A stretch of 64,000 nucleotides of DNA, taken from positions 62,001 through 126,000 of the forward strand of contig JAJDAN010000011.1 in NCBI GenBank assembly GCA_029261855.1, read 5' to 3'. The notes beneath the pieces are model-generated. The model searched no databases, had not been told where the DNA came from, and saw nothing but the letters and a program-made list of their open reading frames with translations. The DNA comes from Deltaproteobacteria bacterium (GTDB lineage Bacteria; Myxococcota_A; UBA9160; UBA4427). Every line of letters begins with the position of its first letter. The first letter of the stretch is position 1. This document shows, one piece after another, positions 36,463-61,357 of the stretch. The translations under genes were made by a program, and so were the position numbers.

Positions 36463-37287
36463 TCAGGTACTTGCGTCCGGGTTGCGCATCCGTTGCTCGA
36501 CCCGCCCCTCGACGCCCCATACGACGACCGCGGCGGGCAGCATCCATGAAAGCGAATCGATGCAGAAGCCTGCGAGCGCGAGGCTGCCCGCCGCCAGGGC
36601 GAGACACGCGAGGACACTCGCGACGAACTGCCCTGCGATTGCCGCGGCGACGAGGGCAGGCAAGCAACGCAGTGCGCGCACGATGTCGATCTGCAGACGC
36701 AGCGCCGCGTACGCGCCGACGCCGAGCATCGCCACCAGCGTCGGCAGGCCCGATTGCGACGAGTCCACGACCAGGGCGGCGTCCCCGGAGATCACTCGTC
36801 GCGCACCTGCCGCAACGCCGGCGCCGAAGAGGTTCACGACCTCGGAGGCAGCGCGGAGAAAGCCGGCAGCAACAGTGTCCCCGCCGAGACCATCCATGAC
36901 CTGGTGGGGCAGCGGCACGATCCACACCGCCACGCAGGCGACCGAGAGAGGCGCGAGGCCCCGCAGCCACAGCAGCCCCAACCCACCCAGTAGCATCGCC
37001 GGCCGCGCCAACGAGGGCATCACCGCCAGGCCCGCCGCCAGCTGAAGGAGCAGGCCCGCAGCGATCGCCGCGCCGCCGATGCCCCGGCGAAGCCTCGGGA
37101 CCGGACCGGCCGTCGGCCCGGCCGTTCCGCTCGCGATGAGCCAAACGGTGAGCACGACGAACAGGGCGCTGTAGCGCGACCAGGGCGCGTGCAGCCATTG
37201 CCGAACGAGGTCGTAGATCCCTGGCGAGAAGGCGATCGCCATCGCCCCGCCCAGCAGCCAGTCGATTCGTCGCCTGGACACGCTCAC
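36463..37287 (-). CDS. Exosortase-family membrane protein lacking catalytic residues
   Basis: A 274-residue polytopic protein. The pattern W-x-RYSAL (36-42), a loop IVPLPHQVMDG (123-133), an amphipathic stretch with FGAG, and VVDSSQSGLPTLVAMLG (173-189) follows the exosortase/archaeosortase template, where this last segment is normally VExACSGLRxL. The expected catalytic Cys is replaced (Gln at 178) and the following Arg is Pro. The later N-x-x-R motif reads GQFVASV (219-225), so the second catalytic Arg is also missing. The start is a GTG at 37287 overlapping the EpsI stop by 4 bp (GTGA), so the two are translationally coupled. The fusion partner or role may now be non-enzymatic. I infer homology from pattern and context only. 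Confidence 0.65.
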   Translation of the reverse strand: MSVSRRRIDWLLGGAMAIAFSPGIYDLVRQWLHAPWSRYSALFVVLTVWLIASGTAGPTAGPVPRLRRGIGGAAIAAGLLLQLAAGLAVMPSLARPAMLLGGLGLLWLRGLAPLSVACVAVWIVPLPHQVMDGLGGDTVAAGFLRAASEVVNLFGAGVAAGARRVISGDAALVVDSSQSGLPTLVAMLGVGAYAALRLQIDIVRALRCLPALVAAAIAGQFVASVLACLALAAGSLALAGFCIDSLSWMLPAAVVVWGVEGRVEQRMRNPDAST

Positions 37288-37961
37288 TGGGACGCCAGCC
37301 GCGCGGCCTCCTGGGGCCAGTGGTCTTCGAGCAGCGGCAGGATCTCGCGACCAAAAGCCTGCAGCCGGGTACGCGCCACGGCTTCGTCCTCCCCCGGCGC
37401 GATCGGGGTGCTCAAACGCACCAGCGACCCGTCGGCGCGCCCGAAACGCACGCGGCTGAGAAAACGGTCCAGCGTCTGGTCGAAGCCGCCCAACATGCCA
37501 CCGCGGCGGATGGACTGGTACCAGAACAGGACGAGGCGTCGGTCCGCACCCTTCTCGACCAGGAACTCGTTCGCACGCAGGGGCGGCACGCCGGGCACGA
37601 CCACCGCATCGACGACATCGTGGCGAACGACCTTCCAGCCCGCCGCCGGATAGCATTCCCAGGGCGTGTGCTCCGGGCGACCGCCGCGCTCGGTCCCGTA
37701 GTAGCCGACGTAGAGCCAGACCAGGTCACCGAGCGGGTGCCAGTAGGCGCGCTGGAGGTTGTAGTCCGCGTCGAGGATCTCTTCGACGCCGGAATCCAGC
37801 TCGACCTCGGTGCCGCGCCACTGAGCGACCTGGAGCGGAATCTTCCCGAGCCCACTGGCATCGACGTCCAGGGGTTCCGCGAGCAACAGCGCCCAGGACA
37901 TCACGCCAAACAACGCGAGTGCCGGAACGGCGACGACCAGAGACCACTTCTCGGCGTTCAT
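37284..37961 (-). CDS. EpsI family protein (exosortase-associated, DUF3485)
   Basis: A 225-residue protein with one N-terminal helix and an EpsI domain: VAQWRGTEVELDSGVEEIL, NLQRAYW, LVWLYVGYYGTERGG, and HTPWECYPAAGW, the hallmark H[ST]PxxCxPxxGW-like block (here C retained, G replaced by A). EpsI accompanies exosortases in polysaccharide and PEP-CTERM loci and is sometimes fused to them. It lies 16 bp after a glycosyltransferase gene and overlaps the exosortase-like gene by 4 bp, so the three form one transcription unit. Confidence 0.88.
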   Translation of the reverse strand: MNAEKWSLVVAVPALALFGVMSWALLLAEPLDVDASGLGKIPLQVAQWRGTEVELDSGVEEILDADYNLQRAYWHPLGDLVWLYVGYYGTERGGRPEHTPWECYPAAGWKVVRHDVVDAVVVPGVPPLRANEFLVEKGADRRLVLFWYQSIRRGGMLGGFDQTLDRFLSRVRFGRADGSLVRLSTPIAPGEDEAVARTRLQAFGREILPLLEDHWPQEAARLASQ

Positions 37962-37977: not shown

Positions 37978-38940
37978 CTAGTCGCGGGTCGGGTGACCCG
38001 AAACGGGGCGCAGGTTGAACTTCAAGAAGTCTCGCAGATGTCGCGTCGGTTCGTGGGGCTGAAGGTCGGTGAGGAGATATCGGACGCGGCGCGCCAGCGC
38101 CCCCACCACGAAGCCCAGGTTGGCGGCCCACAGGGTCAGACGACCGTGGTTCTTCAGGAAGTAGCGCCGGCGGGACGCGTACCAGAAGGTGGGCGTCGGC
38201 GTCGACGTGTCGAGGAAGCCCGTGGACGCCGACCCGATGTGGGTGACAGCGCTCTCGACCACATACCAGGTGGGCCAGCCGGCGCGGCGCGCGCGCAGAC
38301 AGAAGTCGGTCTCCTCGAAGTAGAGGAAGTAGCCGTCGTCCATCAACCCCACCTGCTCGAGCACTTCGCGCCGGATCAGCATGCTGGCCGCCGCTGTCCA
38401 ATCGACGGGGCAGGTCTGCTCGGGCATCGGCAGCGCGACCACGTAACGCCGAAGCAGCCGGGTCACGATGCCCAGGCCGAGAGTGCACTCGAACTCGCTG
38501 AAGGGAGTCGGGAAGCGGAAGGCCGTGCGATGGGGAACCGGCTCCGGACCGTGGACATAGCCGCCCGCGATCCCGATTTCGGGGCGCTCTTCGAGGAACT
38601 GGACCAGCCGCTCGACACAGCCCGGGTCCGGGAATGCGTCGGAGTTCAGCAGGTAGACGAAGTCCGGCTTCTCGGCGCACGCCAGCGCGGGCCGGATCGC
38701 GAAGTTGTTGCCGAACGCGAAGCCGCCGTTGTAGCCCGATTCGACCACCTCCACCCGACCGGACCAGCCCGCATCGTCGACCGCCGAGCGCAGCTTGTCG
38801 AAGGATCCGTCCCGGGAATCGTTGTCGACGACGGTGACGCGCGCGTCGGGGTAGGCTTCGAGCTCGTGCATCAACGCGGACACGGCGTCCAAGGTCATGT
38901 CCGGGGTCTTGTAGTTGACGATGACGGCGAGGAGCTTCAC
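37978..38940 (-). CDS. Family 2 glycosyltransferase, rhamnosyltransferase-like
   Basis: A 320-residue GT2 enzyme. It shows VIVNYKTPDM, VVDNDSRDGS, the Gly/Asn-rich GYNGGFAFGNNF, LLNSDAFPDPG (metal site), and the acceptor-side YFEETDFCLRARRAGW. This arrangement is typical of WbbL-like rhamnosyl or dTDP-sugar transferases in O-antigen and exopolysaccharide synthesis. The GTG start is at 38940. It begins 16 bp after the NRPS stop, so it may be transcribed with the biosynthetic cluster upstream, and it is 16 bp before EpsI. Confidence 0.9.
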   Translation of the reverse strand: MKLLAVIVNYKTPDMTLDAVSALMHELEAYPDARVTVVDNDSRDGSFDKLRSAVDDAGWSGRVEVVESGYNGGFAFGNNFAIRPALACAEKPDFVYLLNSDAFPDPGCVERLVQFLEERPEIGIAGGYVHGPEPVPHRTAFRFPTPFSEFECTLGLGIVTRLLRRYVVALPMPEQTCPVDWTAAASMLIRREVLEQVGLMDDGYFLYFEETDFCLRARRAGWPTWYVVESAVTHIGSASTGFLDTSTPTPTFWYASRRRYFLKNHGRLTLWAANLGFVVGALARRVRYLLTDLQPHEPTRHLRDFLKFNLRPVSGHPTRD

Positions 38941-38956
38941 GCGACGCGCCCCACGA

Positions 38957-41900
38957 TCAACCCCGGCCCCGCTTCCGACGGCGCGACAGGGCCGCCCGGC
39001 GTCGCTCGCCGCGGTCGGCGGCCGCCTCGGCGCTGGCGCCGGCGTCGTCCTCGCTCGACAGGTGCCGCACCAGGGTGCGGATCGTCGGGAAGCGGTACAG
39101 GTCCGTCAGCGACAATGGGCGCTCGATCTGGTCCCGCAGCTGCCGATGCACCTGGACGACCAGGAGCGAGTGGCCACCGAGGTCGAAGAAGTTGTCCTGG
39201 GTACCCACCGTGTCGAGTTTGAGGACCTGCTGCCAGACGGTCGCGATCGTGAGCTCGAGCTCGTTCTCCGGCGCCTGGTACGCGACCGATGTGTGCGGCG
39301 CGAGCTGCTCGGGCGCCGGCAACGCCTTGCGGTCGATCTTGCCGTTGGGCGTGAGCGGGAAGGCGTCGAGAAAGCAGAACGCGCTCGGAATCATGAATTC
39401 CGGCAGGGACGCACCGAGCGCCGCACGCAGGACCTCCGGCTCGGGCTTCCCGGCGGCTTCCGGTGCAACCGACGCGTAGGCGACGAGACGCTGGTCCCCA
39501 GGCGTGTCTTCTCGCACCAGGGCCACGCAGGTCTCGATGTCCGGCTGTTCCCCGAGGCGCGCCTCGATCTCGCCCAGCTCGATCCGGTAGCCCCGGATCT
39601 TCACCTGGTGGTCCATGCGCCCGATGAACTCGACGCTGCCGTCGGGCCGCCAGCGGGCGAGGTCGCCGGTGCGATACATGCGCGCGTCGGCCCGCGCCGA
39701 GAAGGGATCCGCCACGAAGCGGTCCGCGGTCAGGTCCGGGCGTTCGTGGTAGCCGCGCACGACTCCGTCGCCGCCGATCACCAGCTCGCCCGCGACACCC
39801 ACGGGCACGGGCTGCAGGTTGGCGTCCAGGATGTACAACTGGGTATTCGCGATGGGCGAGCCGATGGAGATCGAATCGGGCTTGCCCGCCACCCGCTCGG
39901 TGGACGACCAGATCGTGGTCTCGGTCGGGCCGTACATGTTCGTGACGGTGCCCCCGGCGAGACCGTCGAGCTCGTGAGCCAGGGAGACCGGGAAGGCTTC
40001 ACCCCCGACCATGAGATGCTGGATCTGCCCGAGGGCGGGATGCGTGTCGCGGTCGAGCACCAGCATGCGCGCCATCGAAGGCGTGCATTGCATGTGGGTG
40101 ACGCGATGACGCGCGACCTGTGCCGGCAGCGAGTAGTCGACCCCCTCGTCCCCTGCGCCTGCCGAACCGGACGCCAGGGCGTTCGCCTGCTCGCGGACCT
40201 GGTCGAGCAGCTCGAGGCTCTCGAGCATCAAGTCGGTGGGCACCCCGTAGTCGATCAGGCAGCCGATCTCGTCGACGCCGATGCCCTTCACCTTCTCGAC
40301 CTGGGCCAGACAGGTGTCCACCGAGCCGAACAGGCCGCTCGTCTCGTAGTAGCGCTCGAAGGCGAACTCGAGGATGGCGTCGAGTTCTTCCGGCTCGAGG
40401 CTCGCGAGGTCGATCTCCGGGAGCTCGTCGTCGCCTCCGGGACGGGTGAACGCCGGGAACGCCCAGGCGAAGCCCTTGAGCAGGTTCGCCGCGCTCGACA
40501 GGTACTGCTTCATGGGCTCGCGGGCGACTTCCTTGACGGCTTCGTCGTCGTCGCCCACCAGGGTGTGCAGCATCAGCGTGACGACGCCCGTCGCGGGGTC
40601 GAGACCTGCGGACTTCCGACCCTCGCGGTAGAGGTCGATCTTCTGCTTCAGCTCTTCGAGGGTCTGGCCCAGCAGGTGGGTCAGCAGGTTGCCACCGGAC
40701 TCTCCGGCCATGCGGAAGGTCTCGGGATTGCCGGCGGTCGTCACCCAGAAGGGAAGCTCGGCCTGGATCGGTCGAGGCTGGGTGGTCGTCGCAACCTGCG
40801 CGCCGAGGGGGTTCTGGAACTCGACGGATTCCCCGCGCCAAAGCTTCTGGACCATCTCGATGTCGCGGAACATCTGGCCCTTGGCGTCCTTGTGGTTCTC
40901 CGGTCGCAGCACGAAGTCGTTGGGCTGCCAACCCGCCGCGAACGAGATGCCGATGCGTCCCTTCGACAGGTTGTCGACGACCGCCCATTCCTCCGCGATG
41001 CGGATCGGATGGTGCAGGGGCGACACGCAGCTGCCGGCGCGGATGCCAATCCGCTCGGTGATGGCCGCGATGGCGGCGCCGGTCACGGCCGGGTTCGGGT
41101 AGGGGCCGCCGAAGGAATGGAAGTGGCGCTCGGGGGTCCAGAACGACGAGAAACCGTGGCGGTCTCCGAACTTCGCGCTCTCGAGCATCAGTTCGTACTT
41201 GGCGTTGCCCTGGGCGTCGTCTGCGCCCCACATGAAGAGGCCGAAGTCGATCGGCGTCGAAGAGATCTCGACGCCGCGCTTCGCGTCGTCGGCGTAGAGC
41301 ACCACCTGAAACCCGCGCGCGAGGGTCCAGAGCAGCTCGAGGACCGAGATGTCGAAGGAAAGGCTCGTGACGGCGAGCCACACGCCGGGTGTGTCGTGGG
41401 CAACCCGTTGGTCCATGCCGGCGAAGAAGTTCGCGACGTTGCGATGCTCGACCATCACGCCCTTCGGGCGACCGGTCGAGCCCGACGTGTAGATGACGTA
41501 CGCGAGGTTCGAAGGCGACACCGCCACATCGGGGCACGTCGTCGGGTGGCCAGCGATCTGCGACCAATGGCCATCGACCAGCACCACCTCGGCGTCGTGG
41601 GCCGGCAGTTGAGCCTCGAGATGGCTCTGGGTGATCACGACACCCGCGTGGGAATCCTCGATCATCAGCGCGATCCGGTCCGCCGGGTAGACGGGGTCCA
41701 GCGGGACATAGGCGCCGCCGGCCTTGTGGACACCGAGCATCGAGACCAGCATCTCGAGGGAGCGGTCGGTGTAGATGCCGACGAGCGAGTCGGGCCCCAC
41801 CCCGCGGCCGCGCAGGTGGTGTGCCAGCTGATTGGCGCGCTCGTCGAGCTCCCGGTAGTTGAGGCTGCGGTCGAGGAAGACCGCCGCGATGGCGTCCGGC

Positions 41901-43684
41901 GTGCGATCCGCCTGGGCGGCGATCAGCTCGTGGATGCACGAGTCGCTCGCGTAGTCGCTCGCCGTGTCGTTCCAGGCGCGCAGGACCCGGGCCTGCTCCT
42001 CTTCCGCCAACAGCGGAAGGCGGCTGATCTTCGCATCGCCGGGAGCACCGGCGAGCGAGGCGAGGAAGACCTCGAGATGACTCGCGAGGGCGTCGGCACC
42101 CGGACCATCGAGGGCGTGCTCTTCGAAGTGGATCTCGAGCGAGCTCGCATCGGGAGCGACGCGGAATCGCAGCTCCGAGCCGGGCGTCCACACCGCCGGC
42201 TCGCCCGCCTCGATCTCGATCGCCACGGCGGTGACGGCACCGGACGCGGCCAGCGGGTTCTGCGCGAGCACCGGCGTGCGACCGACCAGGTCCCGCTGCC
42301 AGGGGCCGCGCTTGCGGATCCCCGCGATCTCCTGGTCCATGGCCTCGAAGAACGACTCACGAGAGATCTCCGCAGGCTGTCGCACCAGCATCGGGACCGT
42401 CGCCGAGACCCAGGCTTCGGCGCCCTTCGCCGCCTCGACGAGGGAAGCGTCCCGGAACGCGACATGGAAGCGTTCCTGACCGCCCAGGCGACCGACATAG
42501 GCGGCCACTGCCGCCACGAGGGCATCCGCGCCGGAACCCGTTCCGCGCGGAAGATCTTCGGGGAGCTGTACCGACCGTGACGCGTAGGACGGCGCGTCGC
42601 TCTCGAGCCTGCGGTTCTGCAGGTAGGGCAGGTCGACGGGGTCGAGCCGTGACAGCCTCCGGTGCCAGAGCGACTCGCCCCGGGCGAGCACGCCCGCCCG
42701 CTCGTCCCGGGCAACCACCGCCGCATCGTCGGGGACGGCGAGCCGGGAGCCTTCGGCGATGCCCGCGCGCGCACAAAAGTCCTCGACCGTGAGGGGCGCG
42801 CCGCAGAGCTCGCTGAGCCCGGTGACCCAGAGATCTCCGGACGTCGTCGCCACGACGATGCGATGCGCATCCGCGGCCACGACCGTGCCCGGCGCGGGCG
42901 CCTCGGTCTCGGCGTCGGGATCCGGGTCGGCAACTGCCCGCCGCACGACGACGACCTCGTCGCCGCACGCGAGCTTCGCGACGGCGAGGGGATTCTCGTA
43001 GCGCTCCCCGAAGTCGAGGGCGCGAACCAGGGCTTCGAGCTCGGCCGCCGGCTTGCGGAAGTCCAGGAAGGCTGCGCCCGACGGGCGGTCGAAGCGACCG
43101 AAGTAGCTGCGGGCCGACAGGTCCTGGGCGACGGGCTGGGCGGTGCCGGATGCGAGCTTGCGGACGAGCTCGCCGAAGGCGTCGATTCCAGCCTGGAAGC
43201 ACTTGGTATTGAGGGTCAGCGAGGTCTCGTCCGGGCTGACCTCGAACAGGCGTTGCTCGTACACGCCGCCCTCGTCGACCTCTCCCCGCATCTCGTGAAA
43301 CGAAACACCGTACTCGGCCTCGCGGTTCATCAAGGCCCACGCGGGTGCGTTGAGCCCCGCGTAGCGCGGCAGCGGACCATCGTGGAAGTTGATCGCTTCG
43401 CGACGCGGGAGGTCCAGCACCTCCTGGGGAATCAACCGCAGGTTCGTGATGCTGAAGAGGTAGTCGAAGGAGTGATCCGCCAACTCGCTGGCGAGGTCGG
43501 CGTTCTTGGCGTCGGCGGCCAGGACCGGAAGCGCGTGCTGTCGGGACCAGCGATCGATGGCGGGATCGTCGGTCACGACGGCGACGATCTGATGGCCTTC
43601 CGCGAGCAGGATCTCTCCGCACTGGATCAACAGGGACTGCTCGCCCATGATCACGCAGCTGAAAGCGTTCTGGTTCTTCTCCAT
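38957..43684 (-). CDS. NRPS: formyltransferase - truncated C - A with embedded luciferase-like monooxygenase - PCP
   Basis: A 1575-residue single-module peptide synthetase. Residues 1-310 are a Fmt-type formyltransferase with triad N99, H101 and D137 (NFHDGPLPRY, GEVDEG). Residues 330-560 resemble the C-terminal lobe of a condensation domain with no HHxxxDG motif, so no condensation activity is expected. The adenylation core (575-800) has YTSGSTGRPKG and SFDIS (D778). It is interrupted at 811-1165 by an FMN-dependent luciferase-like monooxygenase of the MupA/Atu3671 type (WTPERHFHSFGGPYPNP, GISFAAGWQPNDFV). Adenylation then resumes (NMYGPTE, YRTGDLAR, NGKIDRKALP), and a carrier domain has the phosphopantetheine Ser S1506 in DLGGHS. 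There is no thioesterase. The ATG at 43684 has AGGGG 5 bases upstream. It likely loads, formylates and oxidises an amino acid. Confidence 0.88.
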   Translation of the reverse strand: MEKNQNAFSCVIMGEQSLLIQCGEILLAEGHQIVAVVTDDPAIDRWSRQHALPVLAADAKNADLASELADHSFDYLFSITNLRLIPQEVLDLPRREAINFHDGPLPRYAGLNAPAWALMNREAEYGVSFHEMRGEVDEGGVYEQRLFEVSPDETSLTLNTKCFQAGIDAFGELVRKLASGTAQPVAQDLSARSYFGRFDRPSGAAFLDFRKPAAELEALVRALDFGERYENPLAVAKLACGDEVVVVRRAVADPDPDAETEAPAPGTVVAADAHRIVVATTSGDLWVTGLSELCGAPLTVEDFCARAGIAEGSRLAVPDDAAVVARDERAGVLARGESLWHRRLSRLDPVDLPYLQNRRLESDAPSYASRSVQLPEDLPRGTGSGADALVAAVAAYVGRLGGQERFHVAFRDASLVEAAKGAEAWVSATVPMLVRQPAEISRESFFEAMDQEIAGIRKRGPWQRDLVGRTPVLAQNPLAASGAVTAVAIEIEAGEPAVWTPGSELRFRVAPDASSLEIHFEEHALDGPGADALASHLEVFLASLAGAPGDAKISRLPLLAEEEQARVLRAWNDTASDYASDSCIHELIAAQADRTPDAIAAVFLDRSLNYRELDERANQLAHHLRGRGVGPDSLVGIYTDRSLEMLVSMLGVHKAGGAYVPLDPVYPADRIALMIEDSHAGVVITQSHLEAQLPAHDAEVVLVDGHWSQIAGHPTTCPDVAVSPSNLAYVIYTSGSTGRPKGVMVEHRNVANFFAGMDQRVAHDTPGVWLAVTSLSFDISVLELLWTLARGFQVVLYADDAKRGVEISSTPIDFGLFMWGADDAQGNAKYELMLESAKFGDRHGFSSFWTPERHFHSFGGPYPNPAVTGAAIAAITERIGIRAGSCVSPLHHPIRIAEEWAVVDNLSKGRIGISFAAGWQPNDFVLRPENHKDAKGQMFRDIEMVQKLWRGESVEFQNPLGAQVATTTQPRPIQAELPFWVTTAGNPETFRMAGESGGNLLTHLLGQTLEELKQKIDLYREGRKSAGLDPATGVVTLMLHTLVGDDDEAVKEVAREPMKQYLSSAANLLKGFAWAFPAFTRPGGDDELPEIDLASLEPEELDAILEFAFERYYETSGLFGSVDTCLAQVEKVKGIGVDEIGCLIDYGVPTDLMLESLELLDQVREQANALASGSAGAGDEGVDYSLPAQVARHRVTHMQCTPSMARMLVLDRDTHPALGQIQHLMVGGEAFPVSLAHELDGLAGGTVTNMYGPTETTIWSSTERVAGKPDSISIGSPIANTQLYILDANLQPVPVGVAGELVIGGDGVVRGYHERPDLTADRFVADPFSARADARMYRTGDLARWRPDGSVEFIGRMDHQVKIRGYRIELGEIEARLGEQPDIETCVALVREDTPGDQRLVAYASVAPEAAGKPEPEVLRAALGASLPEFMIPSAFCFLDAFPLTPNGKIDRKALPAPEQLAPHTSVAYQAPENELELTIATVWQQVLKLDTVGTQDNFFDLGGHSLLVVQVHRQLRDQIERPLSLTDLYRFPTIRTLVRHLSSEDDAGASAEAAADRGERRRAALSRRRKRGRG

Positions 43685-43992
43685 CGATCCCCTACCCCGC
43701 GCTGGCCCCTGTTGATGCTCGCGCCGTGCTCTGTCGGACGTTCTAGCTGTCGTTCTGTCTGCCGTTCTGTGTTCGAGCGGTGCAAGTCCCGCGCCACGGA
43801 CTCTCTGGCGCCAGCCGGAACGCTCTCGCGCCACTCATCACGGGAAGAGCGTCCGGTGCGGGGCAGCGGGCTACGCAGCCGCTTGCGATTCGCCCCGGAC
43901 TGCCGTGAGGCAGGGGTGGTGCGCTACCGACATGTGCACCTCGGATGGCCACGTGCGCGTATCTCCTTCACTCTCTCGTTCGAAGATTGCAC
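43685..43992. other. 308-bp gap inside the biosynthetic cluster
   Basis: The gap lies between the stand-alone adenylation gene and the NRPS start. The longest minus-strand frame (43743-43952, GTG start with AAGGAG 11 bases upstream) would give 69 residues, Pro/Arg-rich with no recognised domain; it lacks the NxExQxS and Trp signature of MbtH proteins. I call no gene. The region may carry a promoter for the NRPS; a short repeated GTTCTGT motif is visible near 43750-43775. Confidence 0.5.
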
Positions 43993-46469: not shown

Positions 46470-46633
46470 CACCCTGCTCCTGCTGCTCCCTGCTCTAGTG
46501 GTAGTGCCGCCATCGACCCGTCGGGTTGCGCCGAAATCCATTGAAATCACCGACTTGGGTGGCCTTCGGCGCACCCGCCGGCAGCCGGGGCGCAGCTATT
46601 GAGTTGCATAGCCCGACGAGACACACAAGCGGG

Positions 46634-49600
46634 TCAGTCATCCACATCCCCCGGGGCCGTCGGGGCGGCGGATCGGGACCGCGCCTCCGCCTCTGCGATG
46701 CAGGCGCTCAGCTGTCGCGCCATCACCCGGACGTTCGGCTCGAGCACCATCGAGTCGTGGTTGCCGGGCATCTCGTAGACGTCGATGCCCTCACCCCACT
46801 GGCCGAAGCCGTTGTCGTGCCAGACCCACTCCTTGGCGCTGTCGACGACGCGGTCGCCGCCGAGCGGATACGCTCGGTCGAGCTTCGGGCGGAACAGCAC
46901 CAGGCGGCCCGGGAACTTTCGCATCTGGTAGCGCGGCAGCGCCGCGAGGAAGGCCGCCTCGATCGCCTTGTTGTGGAACTGATCCTCGGTATGGCCCGCG
47001 TCGTCGGGAGTCTCGAAGCGCGCCTGGATCTGCTCGATCTGCCATCGCATCCGATTGCGCGCCCAGTCGATCGCGTAGCCGGGTCCGCGGCTCTTCAAGC
47101 GCTGCCACTGGATCTTCGCCCGGTCGATCTTCTTGAGCGGCGGGGTCTGGGGCAGACGCGAATCGAGCAGCAGCAGCAGCCCGACCTCCTCGCCGGCAGC
47201 CCGCAGCTGGTGGGCGATCTCGAAGGCCGTCAGGCCACCTCCCGAGAAGCCCCCCACGTAGTAGGGACCTTCGGGCTGGACGCTGCGCATTTCGGCGACG
47301 TACGCCTCGGCCATTTCTTCGAAGGTCTCGTGGGGCGGCTCGTCCCCATAGAGGCCGCGTGCCTGGAGGCCATAGAACGGACGGTCGCCACCCACGAGGT
47401 TCGCTAGGTGACGCAGGTTGAGGACGTTTCCGAACATGCCAGCCACCAGGAAGAAGGGCGTCCGCGGTCCGCCCTCCCCTGCGTGCATGGCCACGAGATG
47501 CTTGTAGCGGGTGCGCCGGGTCTCGCTCGCCGGCGCCGCTTCACCGGACGCAGTGGCCGCGTCGTCGCCGATGGCCTCGCGGATCAGATCGGCGCAGCCT
47601 TCGATGGTCGGCGCCTCGAACAGCACCGAGATCGGGAACTCCGCGCGATAGGCCTTCTTGATCATTGCGAAGAGCCGGACGGCGATCAGCGAGTGCCCGC
47701 CCAGATCGAAGAAGCTGTCGCACACCCCCAGCTCGTCGACCCCGAGCAGGTCCTCCCAGTAGCCCACCAGGGTGCGCTCGATCTCGTCGCGGGGTGCGAC
47801 GTACTCGCTGTCGAGGTCTGGACGCTCGAAGCGCGTCGCCGAGTCGCTGTTGGCGTCCGTCGCGAGATCGAGCTGTCGGATCAGGGCATGCAGGTCGAGA
47901 GACGAGACCGCCACCTGGGGATGTCGTCCGCCGGCGATCACGCGGGCCAGTGCCTCCGAGCCCTCGTCGGGACGGATGCCCCGCTCGTAGTTGCGCCGCA
48001 GGCGTAGCTCCGAAGGCGACACGTCCCGGGGATCGCCGGCCCCGAGCACGGCCTCGAACTCCACGTCTGCCCGGGTCGGGCCGCTGGTGACGCCGAAGTC
48101 GATGGACTCGGCGAGCCGGTGGATGGTGAATTCCTCGATCTCGAGCAGCACGCGTCCGCTCTCGTCACAGATGGTCACGTCGAAGACGGCGAAGTCGGAA
48201 TCGGCGCGGTTCTCCGCGTGGTTGCGGACCCAGCTGTAGACGCGACGGGGCAATGCGTCGTGCACGACGAAGCGGCCGTAGGAGACGGGCACCCACAGGG
48301 CGTCGGCGCCGACGTAGCCGTCGATGAGGTCCATCGCATAGCCGGTCGCATAGTCGAGCAAGGCCGGGTGCAGGCCGTAGTCGTCGAGATCGTCTTCGAA
48401 GGCTTCGGGCAGCTCGAGGCGCGCGAGCGCCTCTCCCATTCCGTCCTTGCCGTAGAGCACCTGCTGCAGCACGCGCCAGCGCGGGCCGAAGCGGACGTGG
48501 TTCTCCTGGCCGGACTTCAGCCCGCTCGGATCGAGCTCCGAGCGGCTGTACTGACAGCGGGCATCGATGGCCGCCAGGTCGATGGCCTGCGGCGGCTCCA
48601 CGTGTCCGAACTCGATGCTCGCCTGGGCGTTCAGCTCCCAGGCCGCCCGGCCCTCGAGCTCGCACCCCGTCCGCACCTCGAAGCGATAGCCCTGGGCGCT
48701 CGCGCTCAACATGACGCGCACGTCGCGCGTCTCGCCGTCGGGCACGTACAACGGGCGCAGGAAGTACAGGTCGCGGATCTCGAAGGCGCCGGTCTCGCCG
48801 TATTCCGCCAGGGCGGCGCGGGCGAGCTCCGGATAACCGGTGCCGGGAAGCAGCGCGTGTCCGGACCGCGTGCGGTGCTCGTTCAGCACCCAGTCCTGCT
48901 CGGGCGTATAGCGCTTGCCGAAGACGGTTCGTCCGTGGCCATCCTTCTCGCGGGTTTCGAAGAGCGGATGCCGGGGGGCCTTCATCGCGGCTTCGCTGGC
49001 CAACGCCCCACCCGTGTCGGCGCCGCCGAAGCTCTCGGCCGCCATCCCGACGTCGTTCCAGATCCCCCAGTTGACGGAGATCGCCCGCACGGACGTCCCC
49101 TCGCGGCCGTGCGCGTAGGCGTCGAGGAAGGCGTTGGCCCCCGCGTAGTCGATCTGGCCGGCCGGCGCGGCAATCGCGCTCGTCGAGGAGAACAGCACGA
49201 TCAGCTCGACGCCTGCTTCTTCGAGCAGCGAATCGAGCACCACGGTTCCGTGCACCTTGGGACCGAACACGTCCTCGACGTCGGACTCGAGCTTGAGCTG
49301 CATCAGCTCGTCCTTGACGACGCCGGCCGTGTGGATGACGCCGTGGATCTCACCGAAATGGTCGCGCGCAGTCCGGAACACGTCACGCATCTGGTCGTAG
49401 TTGGTGACGTCGGCAGCCACTACCAACACGTCGGCGCCCGCGCGCTCGAGCTCCTGCACCTTGCGGATGCGCCGCCCGACGGCGTCGTTTCCGCCGCGAC
49501 TACGGAGCCAGTCCTCCCACTCGTCCCGCTCGGGCAGTGGAGTGCGTCCGACCAGCACGAGCTTCGCCTTGAGGTCCCGGGCCAGGCGCTCGGCCATGGT

Positions 49601-52600
49601 CAGACCCAGGCCACCGAGTCCGCCGGTGATCAGGTAGGTTCCGCCTTCCCGCAGGCCCGTGGCATCCGCGGCGACCGGCGCGAGGGGCTCCGGCTGGAAG
49701 CGACGCACGTAGCGCAGTACCCCAGGCAGGGGTGCGGACTGAGACGCGGACTGGGCTCCGGACTGGGCTCCGGACTGGGCTCCGGACTGGGCTCCGGAAG
49801 AGACGGAGCGATAGGCGACGACCTCGCAGGCGGGTTCGCCCAGCAACTCGTCCTCGAGCGCAGCAGCGACCGAGTCGAGGGTCACCGGGGCCGTCTCCGG
49901 ACGCGAGCGGAGGCTCGTCAGCAGTCCGGTCAGCGTGTTCTCCGGACGCCCGGGCAGGCTGACGTCGACACTGCGACAGGTGACTCCGGGAAGCTCTCGC
50001 GGGATCACCTGCACCGGCCCGAGCACGGTGGCCTTCTCCGGGTGCGGCAACGGTTCGCCGGCGATCACCCGCTGCATGCCGTTGGCGACGACGTCGATGT
50101 GCAGCGGCGTCGGGACGTTCTCGTCACCGAGTGCCTGAGCCAGGAAGAACAAGCTGTAGAAGCCGTCCTGGAGGTTCTGGTGGAAGAAGCTCGAGCCCGG
50201 TCGGAAGCGTTCGCGGTCGGTCACCAACCACAGGTGCGCGATGCGACTCGGCACCTTGCCCGTGGCCACGAGATCCTGGACCAGGGCGTCGTAGCCCTCG
50301 CGTCCGCGTTCGGGCGCAAGCGTGTAGTTGAGCTCGTCCTTCTGCAGGTACGCGTCGCCGCTCTCGACGCAGACCACGGTGTGGCCCCCTGCCGCGAGCC
50401 GCTTGCGGAGCCTGCGCCCCACCCCGGCCTGATCCATGAAGAGCAGCCAGGTCAGGGGCTCACCCGCCGCGCGCTCCACCGCAACGGACTCCCAGACGGG
50501 CACCTGCCCCCAGTCGCGCAGGTCTGCGAGGCGTTCGAGATTGGTCAGGTCCTCGCCGGCCGCGACCGGGGCCGTCGGTTCGATGAAGTAGCGCTGGTGC
50601 GACCAGGCATAGGTCGGCAGCGGCACGCGCTTGCGGGTCTCCCCCTCGCGCAGGCGGCCGAGATCGACGTCCAGACCGGACGCCCAGCAACGACCGAGGC
50701 TCGCCAGGAAGAAGGCCGAGTCGCTGATGGGATCGTCGCGGTGACGCATGCTCGGGATGACGTTCACGTCCTGGCGAGCGCTCGGGTGCTGCTTCGCGAA
50801 GGAGCAGAGCGCCTGGCCGGGACCGATCTCGATCAGCACGCGTCCCGGCTTCTCGAGCAGGGCCGCCACCCCGTCGGCGAAGAACACCGTGTGTCGCAGG
50901 TGGTCGACCCAGTAGCCGGGGTCCGTCGCCTGCTCGTCGGTGATCAGCTTGCCGGTGCGATTCGACACGAAGGGAATCTTCGGCGGATGCAGCGAGACGC
51001 TCTCGAGGAAGCCGCGGAACTCCGCCAGGATGGGCTCGAACATCCGCGAGTGACCCGCCACCGGCACCGGCAGCCGCCGGTAGTCGACGTCGCGGTCCGC
51101 GAGGGTTCGCTCGAGGGCTTCGACGGCGTCCACGGCACCCGAGGCCACGCACAGCTGGGGCGTATTGATGATCGCGAGATCGATGTCGCCCTGGAGCAAC
51201 GGCTTGAGCTGGTCGGGCGACAACGCGACGCTGGTCATGGCACCGGCGGGGGCGCGCGTGGTCAGCACACCCCGCAGGATCATCAGGTCGAGGGTGTCCT
51301 CGTAGGACAGCACGCCGGCCACACAGGCGGCTGCGTTCTCGCCCATGCTGTGGCCGATCATGACCTCCGGCTCGAAGCCCCAGGACTTCCAGAGCTCGAA
51401 GAGCGCCATCTCGAGCACGAAGATCGCGGGTAGCTGACGCGCGGTGATCTCGAGCTCCGCCGCCGCGGCTTCCAGGTCGTCCGCCGCCGGGAAGAACAGG
51501 CTGCGGAAGTCCTTGCCGGTCTTCTGCTCGAGCAGCGCGATGCCGCGGTCGAGGTGCTCCCGGAAGACGGGCTCCTTCGCGTACAGCTCGGACGACATGC
51601 CCGGGTACTGCGTGCCGGCGCCCGAGAACATGAACGCCACCGAGGGCGTCGCCTCGGGGACCGCATGGCCGAAAACCCGGCGCGGGTTTCCGCTTTCGAG
51701 GGCTTCGATGGCCTCGTCGCGGCTTGCGACAGCCAGGACACGGCGGCGGTCGAAGGCGCGGCGCCCCACGTCGAGGGTGTAGGCGACGTCGGCAAGAGGC
51801 GTTTCCGGGTGGTCGCGCAACCACGCGGCCAACTGCTTCGCATTGCCGTCGAGCGCCTTGGCGTTGCGCGCGGACAGCATCAGCAGCTGGTGCGGGTTGT
51901 CGGACTCCCGGGTGGCGACAGGCGCGGGAGCTTCCTCGAGCACCACGTGGGCGTTGGTCCCGCCGACACCCAACGAATTGACCGCCGCGCGCCGCGGCGT
52001 CGCCTTGCGGGGCCACGGCTGGAGAGCGTCGTTGATGACGAAGGGCGACGCTGCGAAGTCGATCACCGGGTTCGGCGACTCGTAGCCGAGGGTCGGCGCG
52101 ATCTGCTCGTTCTCGAGGCACAGCGATGCCTTGATGAGCCCCGCCACGCCGGCGGCGGTGTCGAGATGCCCGATGTTCGACTTGACCGACGCGAGCCGGC
52201 AGAAACCGGTGGCATCGGTGTGCTGGCGGAAGGCCTGGGTGAGCGCCTCGACCTCGATGGGGTCGCCCATGTAGGTGCCGGTGCCGTGGCACTCGATGTA
52301 GCCGATGGTGGCGGGGTCGACGCCGGACACCGCGTACGCCTCGGCCATGGCAGCCGCCTGGCCGTCGACGCTGGGCGCCAGGTAGCCGACCTTGCCCCCG
52401 CCGTCGTTGTTGACCGCGGAGCCGCGGACCACTGCGTAGATGTGGTCGCCGTCTTCGAGCGCGTCTTCGAGGCGGCGCAGCACCACGACACCCACGCCGC
52501 TGGTGAGCACCGTGCCCTGGGCACGGTGATCGAAGGCGTGGCAATGCCCGTCCGGGGACAGCACCTCGCCTTCCTTGTAGACGTAGCCCCGGTTGTGGGG

Positions 52601-53239
52601 CAGCAGGATGGTGACGCCGCCCGCCAGAGCCATGTCCGACTCGCCACTGAGCAGGCTCTGGCAGGCCATGTGAGTCGCCACCAGCGAGGTCGAGCAGGCA
52701 GTCTGGACGTTGACGCTCGGGCCCTTGAGGTCGAGCAGGTACGAGACGCGGGTGACCAGGAAGTCCTTGTCGTTGCCCGTGTGCCGCAGCAGGAAGTGCC
52801 CCACGGAGTCCACGAGCTCGCGGTTCGTACAGATGTTGAAGTAGAAGTAGCTGCCCATCCCACAGCCGCCGAACAGGCCGATCTGCCCGTCGAAGTTCTC
52901 CGGCGGATGCGCGGCGTCCTCGAGGGCCTCCCAGCAGCACTCGGTGAAGTGGCGGTGCTGGGGGTCGAGGATGGCGCTCTCCTTCGGCGAGAAACCGAAG
53001 AACTCGCCGTCGAACATCTCCATGCCCGCGAGGGTGCCCGTGGCCGGGACGTAGTCCGGGTGGCGCAGCAGCTCGGGGGACTCGCCCGCTTCGAGCAGCT
53101 CCTCCTCGCTCAGCTGGCGGACGGACTCGACTCCGTCGCGCACGTTCTCGAAGAACTGGCGGGGGGTCTGTGCGCCCGGCACGCGCATCGCCATCCCGAC
53201 GATTGCGATGTCGTTGTCGTGCGAGCTGGAGTCGCTCAT
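46634..53239 (-). CDS. Type I PKS, KS-AT-psiKR-KR-DH-ACP-TE
   Basis: A 2201-residue single-module polyketide synthase. KS: C182 in TACSTS, H318 in HGTGT and H358 in NIGHLD. AT: S631 in GHSMGE and H730 in VAGHSRM, where the selectivity position reads VAGH and is not diagnostic. Residues about 900-1140 form a structural KR half, then a Ser/Gln-rich linker with four SGAQ units. KR has TGGLGGLG (1205-1212) and Y1365/N1369 in DYAGANAF. DH has H1455 and D1629 (HPALLDY); its HxxxGxxxxP motif carries one extra residue. The carrier Ser is S1850 in DLGGHS. The TE has S1999 in GFSGGG and H2161 in GNHDSM. KR preceding DH is unlike the usual DH-ER-KR order. The ATG at 53239 has GGAG just upstream. It is the first gene of the cluster; AurF-like, A and NRPS genes follow. 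Confidence 0.92.
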   Translation of the reverse strand: MSDSSSHDNDIAIVGMAMRVPGAQTPRQFFENVRDGVESVRQLSEEELLEAGESPELLRHPDYVPATGTLAGMEMFDGEFFGFSPKESAILDPQHRHFTECCWEALEDAAHPPENFDGQIGLFGGCGMGSYFYFNICTNRELVDSVGHFLLRHTGNDKDFLVTRVSYLLDLKGPSVNVQTACSTSLVATHMACQSLLSGESDMALAGGVTILLPHNRGYVYKEGEVLSPDGHCHAFDHRAQGTVLTSGVGVVVLRRLEDALEDGDHIYAVVRGSAVNNDGGGKVGYLAPSVDGQAAAMAEAYAVSGVDPATIGYIECHGTGTYMGDPIEVEALTQAFRQHTDATGFCRLASVKSNIGHLDTAAGVAGLIKASLCLENEQIAPTLGYESPNPVIDFAASPFVINDALQPWPRKATPRRAAVNSLGVGGTNAHVVLEEAPAPVATRESDNPHQLLMLSARNAKALDGNAKQLAAWLRDHPETPLADVAYTLDVGRRAFDRRRVLAVASRDEAIEALESGNPRRVFGHAVPEATPSVAFMFSGAGTQYPGMSSELYAKEPVFREHLDRGIALLEQKTGKDFRSLFFPAADDLEAAAAELEITARQLPAIFVLEMALFELWKSWGFEPEVMIGHSMGENAAACVAGVLSYEDTLDLMILRGVLTTRAPAGAMTSVALSPDQLKPLLQGDIDLAIINTPQLCVASGAVDAVEALERTLADRDVDYRRLPVPVAGHSRMFEPILAEFRGFLESVSLHPPKIPFVSNRTGKLITDEQATDPGYWVDHLRHTVFFADGVAALLEKPGRVLIEIGPGQALCSFAKQHPSARQDVNVIPSMRHRDDPISDSAFFLASLGRCWASGLDVDLGRLREGETRKRVPLPTYAWSHQRYFIEPTAPVAAGEDLTNLERLADLRDWGQVPVWESVAVERAAGEPLTWLLFMDQAGVGRRLRKRLAAGGHTVVCVESGDAYLQKDELNYTLAPERGREGYDALVQDLVATGKVPSRIAHLWLVTDRERFRPGSSFFHQNLQDGFYSLFFLAQALGDENVPTPLHIDVVANGMQRVIAGEPLPHPEKATVLGPVQVIPRELPGVTCRSVDVSLPGRPENTLTGLLTSLRSRPETAPVTLDSVAAALEDELLGEPACEVVAYRSVSSGAQSGAQSGAQSGAQSASQSAPLPGVLRYVRRFQPEPLAPVAADATGLREGGTYLITGGLGGLGLTMAERLARDLKAKLVLVGRTPLPERDEWEDWLRSRGGNDAVGRRIRKVQELERAGADVLVVAADVTNYDQMRDVFRTARDHFGEIHGVIHTAGVVKDELMQLKLESDVEDVFGPKVHGTVVLDSLLEEAGVELIVLFSSTSAIAAPAGQIDYAGANAFLDAYAHGREGTSVRAISVNWGIWNDVGMAAESFGGADTGGALASEAAMKAPRHPLFETREKDGHGRTVFGKRYTPEQDWVLNEHRTRSGHALLPGTGYPELARAALAEYGETGAFEIRDLYFLRPLYVPDGETRDVRVMLSASAQGYRFEVRTGCELEGRAAWELNAQASIEFGHVEPPQAIDLAAIDARCQYSRSELDPSGLKSGQENHVRFGPRWRVLQQVLYGKDGMGEALARLELPEAFEDDLDDYGLHPALLDYATGYAMDLIDGYVGADALWVPVSYGRFVVHDALPRRVYSWVRNHAENRADSDFAVFDVTICDESGRVLLEIEEFTIHRLAESIDFGVTSGPTRADVEFEAVLGAGDPRDVSPSELRLRRNYERGIRPDEGSEALARVIAGGRHPQVAVSSLDLHALIRQLDLATDANSDSATRFERPDLDSEYVAPRDEIERTLVGYWEDLLGVDELGVCDSFFDLGGHSLIAVRLFAMIKKAYRAEFPISVLFEAPTIEGCADLIREAIGDDAATASGEAAPASETRRTRYKHLVAMHAGEGGPRTPFFLVAGMFGNVLNLRHLANLVGGDRPFYGLQARGLYGDEPPHETFEEMAEAYVAEMRSVQPEGPYYVGGFSGGGLTAFEIAHQLRAAGEEVGLLLLLDSRLPQTPPLKKIDRAKIQWQRLKSRGPGYAIDWARNRMRWQIEQIQARFETPDDAGHTEDQFHNKAIEAAFLAALPRYQMRKFPGRLVLFRPKLDRAYPLGGDRVVDSAKEWVWHDNGFGQWGEGIDVYEMPGNHDSMVLEPNVRVMARQLSACIAEAEARSRSAAPTAPGDVDD
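49736..49798. repeat. In-frame 12-bp tandem repeats in PKS linker
   Basis: Four exact copies of GGACTGGGCTCC (49748-49795) with a degraded copy on the 5' side. They encode SGAQ units in the linker between the structural and catalytic KR halves on the minus strand. Copy changes would keep frame and alter only linker length. Confidence 0.92.
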
Positions 53240-53741
53240 CTCCGTCCTGAATAGAATTGCGTTTGAAAAGAATCCGAGGGGGCGGGCACCCATCGGGTGG
53301 TCCCCTGAGGTCCTCTTCGAAGCGAAGTCACCATGTCTTAAACGCTTTCTCGGGGTGCGGCGTCGTCCAGGTCGGCAGACCAACGACAGACCAGGACGCG
53401 TCTCGGCCCAAAGACCGAGTATGCTCGATATCTCGCGGGTCTACGACAACTCATACCGGCTCGTGAACCCCCCGGGTGTCACCCTCTCCCGCCCTGCCCC
53501 GAACTCGCGCCAGTGCGGGAACGCAGACCCGATTCAGCGCGACGACAGAGGGAGTCACCAGAGTGGGTCGCCGGGATCGGTCAGAAGGTTGCGGGGACCT
53601 CGCCCCGGTGGCGAGACAGTCTCTCGGCTCAGGGCCGGGCGACTTCTGCCGATGGAAACGAGTCAGACCCCGCGCTCGCGGGACTGCGGAAGGGCAGATG
53701 TGGCCGGCGTGAAAGGCGTGACTGTGAAGGGCGTGACATAG
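53240..53741. other. 502-bp divergent intergenic region upstream of the PKS
   Basis: It should hold the promoter that drives the biosynthetic cluster to the left and that of the methyltransferase to the right. The segment next to the PKS is unusually AT-rich (ATAGAATTGCGTTTGAAAAG, reading plus strand 53249-53268). A CTTCGAAGCGAAG repeat lies near 53312. Just before the methyltransferase start GGCGTGA recurs three times (53705-53736). Open frames here lack recognisable domains, so I call none. Confidence 0.5.
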
Positions 53742-58737: not shown

Positions 58738-59832
58738 ATGCGAGTTCGTTGGATCCTGCCCGAGGCTTATCTCGCGGGCGGTACCAAGCTGATCGCCATC
58801 TATGCCGAACGGCTGATGAAGCGCGGGCACGATGTCGTCGTCGTTTCGACTCCGCGTCTCAAGCCCACCCCCCGGCAGCGCCTGCGGGCACTGGTTCGCG
58901 AGAAGCGCTGGCTCGAAGGCCCGCAACGCCGGGCCAGCCATTTCGACGAAACCGGTGTCGACCACCGCATCATCGAGTCGACGCGTCCCATCGTCGACAG
59001 CGACGTGCCCGACGGCGACGTCGTCATCGCCACCTGGTGGGAAACGGCGTCGGCAGTCGCGGCGCTGTCTCCGAGCAAGGGGGCCAAGGCCTACCTGATG
59101 ATGGACTACGGCGCGCCAGGCATGGCGCTCGAGGATCTGATCCCCACCTGGCGGCTGCCGCTGCACATCATCACGATCTCGCAGTTCCTGGTCGACCTGA
59201 TCCAGGAGCACGTACCGGACACCCGCGTCGAGCTGATTCCGTGCAGCGTCGACAGCGAGCAGTTCAGCGCGCCGAAGCGGGGCAAGAGCGCGGTGCCGAC
59301 CGTCGGCTTCTTGTACCGGGACGACTGGGTGAAGGGCGCCGACCTGGTCCTCGAGGCGTTCGGGATCGCGCGGAAGCAGATTCCCGATCTCCGCCTGCTG
59401 ACCTTCGGGCCCCGGGACGCGCTCGCGGTGTCACCGCCCGAAGGCATGGAGTATCGGGCCTTCCCGGCGACCGACAGCCTTCGCGACATCTACTCGAGCT
59501 GTGACGCGTGGCTCTTCGCCAGCCGCAGCGAAGGCTTTGGCCTGCCCATCCTCGAAGCCATGGCCTGCCGCACGCCCGTAATCGCGACTCCTGCCGGCGC
59601 CGCGCCCGAGCTCATCGAGAAGCGGGGAGGCGGTGTCCTCATCAAGCACGAAGATCCCAACGACATGGCGCGCGAGATCGTTCGCTTCTGCACGATGGAG
59701 GAGTCTGTGTGGATGCGGTACTCCGACGCCGCCTTCGAGACCACCCGCTCGTACAGCTGGGACGACGCTACCGATCTCCTGGAAGCGGCACTGCAGCGAG
59801 TCGCCGAGGCCCCCCCGCGGCGCGACGGATGA
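58738..59832 (+). CDS. Family 4 glycosyltransferase
   Basis: A 364-residue GT-B enzyme. N-terminal ILPEAYLAGGTKLIAIYAE, a central TISQFLVDLIQEH, and the donor-site EX7E motif in SRSEGFGLPILEAMACRTPV are present, followed by AAPELIEKRGGGVLI. The ATG at 58738 follows GGAGGGG and begins the conserved first strand; an upstream in-frame start adds ten unconserved residues. It is probably a sugar-transfer step of the local polysaccharide pathway, with the flippase gene 19 bp downstream. Confidence 0.9.
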   Translation: MRVRWILPEAYLAGGTKLIAIYAERLMKRGHDVVVVSTPRLKPTPRQRLRALVREKRWLEGPQRRASHFDETGVDHRIIESTRPIVDSDVPDGDVVIATWWETASAVAALSPSKGAKAYLMMDYGAPGMALEDLIPTWRLPLHIITISQFLVDLIQEHVPDTRVELIPCSVDSEQFSAPKRGKSAVPTVGFLYRDDWVKGADLVLEAFGIARKQIPDLRLLTFGPRDALAVSPPEGMEYRAFPATDSLRDIYSSCDAWLFASRSEGFGLPILEAMACRTPVIATPAGAAPELIEKRGGGVLIKHEDPNDMAREIVRFCTMEESVWMRYSDAAFETTRSYSWDDATDLLEAALQRVAEAPPRRDG

Positions 59833-59851
59833 CGGGGAACCCAGTCCGCTC

Positions 59852-61357
59852 GTGAGCGAGGGCTCTTCTTTCGACGCGACGCCCGCGCCGCTGCCTGACG
59901 CGCTGCCTGACGCGCTGCCTGGCGCACGCCCGGCGAGTCTCGGAGAAAAGGCGACGCGCGCCGCCGCCTGGTCGTTCCTCGGCTTCGGGGGTGGCCAGAT
60001 CGTCCGACTGGCCGGGAACCTGGTCCTCACGCGCCTGCTCTTCCCCGAGGCCTTCGGCCTCATGGCCATCGCCGCGGTGCTGATCCAGGGGCTGATGCTC
60101 TTCTCGGACCTGGGGATCGGGCCGAGCATCATCCAGAACGAAAAGGGCGACGATCGGCGCTTCCTCGACACCGCCTGGACGATGCAATGCCTGCGCGGCG
60201 TGTTCCTGACGGCCGCATCGGCGCTGGCGGCCTGGCCCTTCGCGACCTTCTACGAAGATGATCGTCTCTTCCTCGTGGTCATCGTCGTCGGCTTCAGCGC
60301 CATCTTCCAGGGGCTGAACTCCACCAAGATATTCACGGTCGGACGCCACCTCGACCTCAAGCGATTGACCCTCGTCGAGTTCGCGAGCCAGGTCGTCGGC
60401 GTCGGGACGATGATCGTGTGGGCGCTGTTGTCCCCCAGCTACTGGGCGCTCGCCGCCGGCGGACTCGCGACACCTTTCGCGAAGATGGTCCTCGGCCACC
60501 TGGCCCTGACCGGGCCCATCAACCGTTTCGCATGGCATCCGCCTTCCGCGCACGCGTTGATCCACTTCGGCAAGTGGATCTTCCTGAGCACGGCGATGAC
60601 CTTCTTCGCCGGACAGTCCGACCGCCTCATCTTCGCGAAGCTCATCCCCATGGACATGCTCGGCGTCTACAGCACGGGCGCCATGATCGCACTGATGCCG
60701 TTGACCCTGTTCGGGATGATCGAGCGCCGGGTGGTATTCCCCGTCTACAGCACGGTCCACCGGGAAGGGCGCGAGCTCGCGCCGGTCTTCCTGCGCCTGC
60801 GCTCGGGCTTCCTGACGGCGGGCGGCGTCATCTGCGGAGGACTCCTCGCTTCCGGCCCGACCCTCGTCGCGCTCCTCTACGACGACCGCTACCTCGAAGC
60901 CGGCTGGATCCTGCAGGCGTTGACGCTCGGCACCTGGTTGAACCTGCTCGAGACGACCTACGGCGCGGCACACCTGGCGACGGCGCGCGTACAGTGGGTG
61001 GCCGCCTCGTCCTTCGGCAAGGTCGTCGGCATCGTCGTCTTCGTGATCGTCGGCTACCGACTGCTCGGATTCGAGGGCGCCGTGCTCGGCTACTCCCTGT
61101 CGGAGGCGGTCCGCTATGTCGTGCTCGCGACCGGCGGACGGGTCATGGGCCTGCCCGGCCTCGGCCAGGACCTGTTCCTGTCCGGCCTGGTCGCGGTCTC
61201 TGCGCTGGCCGGCCACGCCGCCGGCGCCGGGCTGGCGTCCCTCGGCTACGGGGTGTTCTTGCAAGTCCTCGCCATCGGGTCGGTGGTGGGGCTCGTGTGG
61301 CTGCCGTTCGCCGTGCGCAACCTGGGGCCCGCCCTCAAGCTGGCCCGAGGCCGCTGA
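59852..61357 (+). CDS. Wzx-type oligosaccharide flippase / polysaccharide biosynthesis protein
   Basis: A 501-residue membrane protein of the MOP/PST (Polysacc_synt) superfamily with about 12-14 helices. Residues 40-60 (AAAWSFLGFGGGQIVRLAGN, then LVLTRLLFPEAFGLMAIA) are the typical N-terminus, and SDLGIGPSIIQ follows. It would flip lipid-linked repeat units across the inner membrane. The N-terminal 30 residues include a Pro/Ala/Leu/Asp repeat (LPDALPDALPGA) encoded by short direct repeats. The GTG start is at 59852. Confidence 0.9.
   Translation: MSEGSSFDATPAPLPDALPDALPGARPASLGEKATRAAAWSFLGFGGGQIVRLAGNLVLTRLLFPEAFGLMAIAAVLIQGLMLFSDLGIGPSIIQNEKGDDRRFLDTAWTMQCLRGVFLTAASALAAWPFATFYEDDRLFLVVIVVGFSAIFQGLNSTKIFTVGRHLDLKRLTLVEFASQVVGVGTMIVWALLSPSYWALAAGGLATPFAKMVLGHLALTGPINRFAWHPPSAHALIHFGKWIFLSTAMTFFAGQSDRLIFAKLIPMDMLGVYSTGAMIALMPLTLFGMIERRVVFPVYSTVHREGRELAPVFLRLRSGFLTAGGVICGGLLASGPTLVALLYDDRYLEAGWILQALTLGTWLNLLETTYGAAHLATARVQWVAASSFGKVVGIVVFVIVGYRLLGFEGAVLGYSLSEAVRYVVLATGGRVMGLPGLGQDLFLSGLVAVSALAGHAAGAGLASLGYGVFLQVLAIGSVVGLVWLPFAVRNLGPALKLARGR

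Follow-up and report, generated by a model that had tools for sequence, protein, structure and literature searches.

The window, a stretch of 64,000 nucleotides from a deltaproteobacterial contig (JAJDAN010000011.1), carries a nonribosomal peptide synthetase (NRPS), a partner type I polyketide synthase (PKS) and genes of the kind found in polysaccharide loci. The NRPS reading frame spans 43834..38957 on the minus strand and, from the ATG at 43684, encodes 1575 aa. The protein begins with a formyltransferase domain (FT), followed by a remnant of a condensation domain (C*), an adenylation (A) domain that is interrupted by a luciferase-like monooxygenase (LLM), and a carrier domain (PCP).

38957..43684 (-): NRPS P0001, FT-C*-A(N)-LLM-A(C)-PCP, 1575 aa
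42770..43684 (-): FT domain, residues 1-305, ArnA/Fmt type with N and C subdomains; identified by Pfam, triad and model
41960..42694 (-): C*, condensation C-lobe remnant without HHxxxDG, residues 331-575; identified by hhalign, PDB profile search and alignment
41249..41932 (-): A domain, N-terminal piece, residues 585-812, motifs a3 and a4
40193..41245 (-): LLM insert (TIGR04020), predicted FMN-type, residues 814-1164
39305..40132 (-): A domain, C-terminal piece, residues 1185-1460, motifs a5 to a10
39050..39247 (-): PCP, residues 1480-1545, FFDLGGHSLL with Ser1506

Domain architecture of the NRPS

The order FT, C-lobe remnant and LLM-split A domain had been proposed in the initial annotation and is borne out by Pfam, NCBIfam and profile alignment. 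Pfam recognizes Formyl_trans_N at residues 56-166 (59 bits), Formyl_trans_C at 205-306 (34 bits), AMP-binding split into one match at 589-801 and another beyond 1185, AMP-binding_C at 1372-1449 and PP-binding at 1480-1542. The C-terminus lies directly behind the PCP, and the domain search found no thioesterase (TE) belonging to the NRPS itself. Chance or an assembly artefact is ruled out because the same layout is found in full-length relatives (46-63% identity) from many genomes; within the window's own phylum these occur in about 20 of 282 sampled genomes.

The A domain is interrupted behind FDIS (777-780) and continues from about 60 residues ahead of NMYGPTE (1249), exactly as first described, with a MupA/Atu3671-type LLM lying after the FDxS motif. 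The gap between motifs a4 and a5 is 472 residues in the window protein and 458-475 in the relatives. Residues 814-1164 match positions 1-341 of the TIGR04020 model with 481 bits against a cut-off of 244.45. The closest solved structure is the OX domain of PuwE from the puwainaphycin system (6KET), a member of the same LLM subfamily with 46% identity over the whole domain; unlike the window LLM, it sits between PKS/aminotransferase and NRPS parts, outside the A domain (PMC4219810). A structural model of A-LLM was fair (pLDDT 79.2, pTM 0.52) and matched A domains and the LLM fold. The LLM is predicted to depend on flavin and to act on a carrier-bound substrate. The source genome has 43 matches to the LLM model, of which only the window one exceeds the TIGR04020 cut-off, and thus holds a large set of luciferase-like flavoproteins.

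The ten-residue specificity code, spread over both pieces of the A domain, is DILQMGMIWK. All 22 relatives compared have DILQ[LMYF]GMIWK (one is truncated at the last position), several of them exactly DILQLGMIWK, the code that a 2025 survey reports for each of the four MOX-bearing Gly A domains (PMC12283262). The window code, with one conservative change, reads as the glycine code of the MtaG/MelG-type "Gly-MOX" modules. MtaG and MelG, of myxothiazol and melithiazol, also have the MOX inserted at a4-a5 of a glycine A domain (PMC12283262, PMC10204066), the site used in the window; two papers give a8-a9 as the general position of nested domains. They differ in having an upstream chain and a TE after the PCP, and in releasing an amide, whereas the window NRPS has an N-terminal FT-C*, a terminal PCP and a separate PKS next in line, with no chain-joining C domain.

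The FT retains the catalytic triad Asn99, His101 and Asp137 when aligned with its relatives. The Asn and His are present in every aligned FT-type relative, and the Asp in all except L033, which has Asn. As in a formylating initiation module, the N-terminal FT with its Asn-His-Asp triad is followed by A-PCP. An AlphaFold2 model of FT-C* (pLDDT 91.3, pTM 0.88) was used for a fold search, in which ArnA was the top match (Z 27.1, rmsd 2.5 over 294 residues) and formyltransferases acting on tRNA or sugars ranked just below it; FT folds filled the list of matches. Similarly, phmmer matches of the window FT were to ArnA and Fmt, with LgrA absent among them. The comparison with the starter LgrA of linear gramicidin, made in the initial annotation, therefore holds for position and role, since LgrA also has a formylation domain N-terminal to A-PCP (F-A-PCP); as to lineage, the FT groups by fold and sequence hits with ArnA/Fmt and is not clearly related to LgrA. 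LgrA also differs in having no LLM, and the C* profile matches only the C domain of its second module (1020-1217, in one stretch).

The region between FT and A (residues about 330-575) gave no meaningful Pfam match in the window protein alone, and when single C* sequences were compared with Pfam, PF00668 was matched in 3 of 21 members (best E 1.6e-4). A profile built from 21 relatives aligned with true C domains (hhalign probability 98.6, E 4.7e-16), at columns 228-491 of 516, that is, the C-lobe only; HHxxxDG lies near columns 175-180. The same lobe was matched in solved C domains (EntF 194-451, TomBC 278-537, and also Txo1). Neither HHxxxDG nor an N-lobe was found in the window protein by sequence or alignment. 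The residual C-lobe first noticed in the sequence is thus confirmed by the profile. A complete but diverged C domain, and with it the complete active domain that the initial annotation had named as contrary evidence, is ruled out, as only C-lobe columns align and HHxxxDG is missing. In each of the 20 family members measured, C* spans 225-268 residues, and its mean pairwise identity is the lowest of the domains (29%, versus 46% for FT, 56-60% for A and 61% for LLM). Uniform retention and length also rule out a recent decay of the C domain in this lineage. C* would be best described as a retained scaffold between FT and A, neither a catalyst nor a recent ruin, and the FT appears to stand on this C-lobe remnant in the place of the condensation-domain N-lobe.

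Relatives and origin of the module

With the FT-C* alignment as query, at least 572 stretches were confirmed in GTDB genome contigs (the 85,000-species set); among the best 80 of these, 11 named phyla are represented. Cultured strains of Ruegeria, Hydrogenophaga, Hyphomicrobium, Devosia and others are among the carriers; no E. coli match was found. The LLM is present in 75 of the best 80 stretches. Four of the other five run past the contig end, and one (L092) truly lacks the LLM. Variants of the architecture were found. In two single proteins (L075 and L118) a TE is appended after the PCP, giving FT-C*-A-LLM-PCP-TE; these could directly release formylated oxidised glycine or glyoxylate. On two plasmids the FT is encoded by its own gene, immediately upstream of the NRPS gene (Deinococcus L159, 4024-10409; Paracoccus L156, 15752-20343), and in Deinococcus the FT gene is itself preceded by a gene for a GNAT/FemAB-like protein. 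On a megaplasmid of Mycetohabitans rhizoxinica (L169, 9013-16407) an NRPS begins with an FT-C* homologous to the window family (549 aligned columns, hhalign E 1e-79). Its stretch matching C* corresponds weakly to PF00668 positions 189-328 (E 0.0098), and its A domain, unlike that of the window NRPS, is unbroken and has no LLM.

In three modules (L044, L045 and L158, the last from Nostoc) the same A-LLM core is preceded not by FT-C* but by a full C domain (PF00668, 258-351 bits), and L044 adjoins a PKS of the same family as the cassette PKS. Since such C-A-LLM elongation modules exist, one of them beside the same PKS, the FT is likely to have taken the place of the C-domain N-lobe; a replacement of this kind in a Gly-LLM module would fit the data. 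In the LLM tree that the initial annotation had suggested, and in a tree of A plus LLM, distant C-A-LLM modules from Streptomyces and Burkholderia fall outside, and the three C-type modules branch between FT types close to the base, which is poorly resolved. The FT type is not one branch in the A+LLM tree, but a single FT clade, and hence a single FT origin, is not rejected (AU p 0.31). Given this placement of the C-type modules, the direction of the swap between C and FT is only partly settled, and the exchange may have happened more than once or been reversed later.

The view that a fused starter arose from an elongation module is thus in keeping with the FT on a C-lobe remnant and with the C-A-LLM sisters. 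That it is still "evolving", as the initial annotation had it, is not: relatives from at least 11 phyla share the architecture and C* is kept in 20 of 20 members measured, so the fusion is neither recent nor transitional. The glycine code, the MtaG/MelG precedent, the recurrent PKS partner and the polysaccharide setting go beyond what the initial annotation had noted.

Partner genes and the polysaccharide setting

The genes around the NRPS that bear on its function are the following.

46634..53383 (-): partner type I PKS, KS-AT-KR-DH-ACP-TE, ORF of 2249 aa with a likely start at ATG 53239
45603-46574 (-): AurF-family diiron N-oxygenase, between PKS and NRPS
43993-45690 (-): stand-alone adenylation protein without a carrier, between PKS and NRPS
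37978..38940 (-): GT2 glycosyltransferase, often conserved with the cassette
37284..37961 (-): EpsI-type protein associated with exosortases (DUF3485/TIGR02914), polysaccharide-locus context
36463 to about 37320 (-): EpsI-adjacent membrane protein with a faint exosortase likeness (23 bits to XrtD)
59633..61357 (+): flippase-type protein (Polysacc_synt_3), polysaccharide-locus context

The partner PKS occurs in 46 of 52 GTDB loci of 18 kb or more, and the active-site motifs of KS, AT, KR, DH, ACP and TE are largely conserved over 56 PKS sequences; the AT motif is AGHS or AAHS. A GT2 gene often lies between or beside the PKS and NRPS genes. In Ruegeria conchae it lies between them, and the window PKS and GT2 are 52% and 45% identical, respectively, to their counterparts there. 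The AurF gene was not matched at the other cassette loci listed, and matches to the adenylation protein there were weak (27-36%), so these two genes look lineage-specific.

Besides EpsI and the flippase, the window contains GT2s and further glycosyltransferases. The membrane protein beside EpsI has SQSG where the CSG motif is expected and may therefore be a catalytically dead exosortase homologue. Polysaccharide markers, with GT2 excluded, were found in 10 of 19 loci from the window's phylum, in 30 of 52 GTDB loci and in none of 20 random 20-kb regions drawn from cassette-bearing genomes of that phylum (Fisher p 1.5e-4 and 1.9e-6, respectively); the same-phylum comparison is the fairer one because the marker panel was derived from alphaproteobacterial plasmid loci. 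About half of the same-phylum loci have no marker in their short flanks. The cassette is thus enriched in exopolysaccharide/exosortase loci. Annotated polysaccharide loci with the cassette are those of Ruegeria (2), Paracoccus (2), Shinella, Parasedimentitalea and Aminobacter. The clearest is the plasmid of Ruegeria conchae, which carries xrtD, rml genes, a sugar transferase, the PKS, GT2, the FT-NRPS and a PPTase. Aliiroseovarius departs from this pattern, and some cassettes lie outside polysaccharide loci (L161 and the C-type L044 and L045). No combination of an exosortase with NRPS/PKS was found in a search of mainly open-access literature.

Proposed chemistry and alternatives

We infer each chemical step, the product and the destination of the cassette as follows. 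The A domain would load glycine onto the PCP, and the FT would N-formylate the glycyl-S-PCP with formyl-tetrahydrofolate as donor. The formyl group would stand in for the acyl or peptidyl chain that the C domain adds in the elongation versions, so that the LLM again meets an N-acylated glycine, the kind of substrate on which the MtaG-type reaction is known; because the FT can supply the formyl group, an upstream chain is unnecessary and the module becomes a starter. C* would serve as a scaffold between FT and A with no catalytic part. The LLM would then hydroxylate the glycine alpha-carbon, giving N-formyl-alpha-hydroxyglycyl-S-PCP. The FMO between a4 and a5 of MtaG and MelG hydroxylates the glycyl alpha-carbon (PMC10204066, PMC11342130), and the PuwE OX pathway was proposed to yield a 2-hydroxy acyl chain (PMC4219810). 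Hand-over of the hydroxylated product to the PKS is suggested by the linkage of the genes and the lack of a C domain. KS-AT-KR-DH-ACP-TE would add one unit, reduce and dehydrate it, and the TE would release a C4 product, for example 4-formamido-4-hydroxybut-2-enoate, which is probably destined for a polysaccharide or glycoconjugate. Taken as a whole, this reading, a chain-initiating Gly-MOX module whose glycine is loaded, formylated, alpha-hydroxylated and extended once by the PKS to a C4 acid, is given about an even chance of being correct.

The hydroxylated intermediate may not stay intact, because MtaG and MelG cleave the hydroxylated glycine into an amide and a glyoxyl thioester (PMC10204066, PMC11342130). 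It is conceivable, though well short of probable, that the carbinolamide in the window collapses as in myxothiazol: formamide would leave, glyoxylyl-S-PCP, a C2 aldehyde, would be the starter and the PKS would turn it into a unit of the 4-oxobut-2-enoyl type. The proteins L075 and L118, like MtaG, have a TE right behind the PCP. The window PCP is terminal, however, with the PKS next in line, and cleavage does not always follow hydroxylation: the glycine module SolF, which also has an FMO, makes alpha-hydroxyglycine without cleavage, and solanimycin B keeps it (PMC10204066). SolF differs from the window NRPS in that its FMO lies at a8-a9, it is an elongation module and no FT is reported for it.

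Siderophores commonly bear N-formyl-N-hydroxy groups. If the LLM hydroxylated nitrogen rather than carbon, the product would be N-formyl-N-hydroxyglycine, a hydroxamate metal ligand; N-delta-OH-N-delta-formyl-Orn is among the units listed in PMC12283262, and an AurF-family N-oxygenase is encoded in the window. This is unlikely, since PuwE, MtaG, MelG, SolF and the PKS-embedded LLMs, characterised or proposed, act on the carbon alpha to the thioester, and the other loci listed do not share the AurF gene. No siderophore uptake or transport genes stood out in the annotated cassette loci, which also counts against a siderophore.

The fold of the FT is also that of sugar N-formyltransferases, which are found in polysaccharide loci, and this counts against the preferred reading of a formylated glycine starter. 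The substrate of the FT might be an amino sugar from the local polysaccharide, the link to the NRPS being only physical: its closest folds are ArnA and other N-formyltransferases, sugar enzymes included, the cassette sits in polysaccharide loci, and the FT is a separate gene in the Deinococcus and Paracoccus plasmids. We consider this quite improbable, because the in-frame FT-C*-A fusion is near-universal (90 FT-type rows against the two split ones) and the Mycetohabitans FT-C* is attached to an LLM-less NRPS A domain with no sugar genes in the annotated 20 kb. An active elongation module, in which C* or an unseen partner performs condensation, would account for the conserved length of C* in all relatives measured but is very improbable given the missing N-lobe and HHxxxDG and the position of C* as the least conserved domain (29% mean pairwise identity versus 46-61%).

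Each part of the glycine starter module is known, but formylation and alpha-hydroxylation in one such module are apparently undescribed; no published description of the FT-C*-A-LLM-PCP architecture was found in the mainly open-access literature searched. The assembly line looks old and widespread rather than a local oddity, because the enzyme and its matching PKS recur across at least 11 phyla. More tentatively, PKS/GT2/FT-C*-A-LLM-PCP may be an ancient cross-phylum line for surface polysaccharides. It would combine one glycine and one malonyl-type unit into a small reactive C4 group (formamido-hydroxy-enoyl or glyoxylyl-derived oxo-enoyl) that is attached to an exopolysaccharide or its carrier, and the FT would have displaced the condensation N-lobe to provide the N-acylation required by the LLM. 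If the preferred model of a formylated, alpha-hydroxylated glycine starter holds, it would add a starter unit with new chemistry, show clearly how one N-acylating domain can be swapped for another within an NRPS module, and give the first clue to NRPS/PKS-made groups on some exopolysaccharides. The cassettes of Comamonas sp. KCTC 72670 and Myxococcus sp. CA023 (L081 and L083) are nearly identical, with tree tips of 0.02-0.03, reflecting either a recent transfer or a mislabelled genome.
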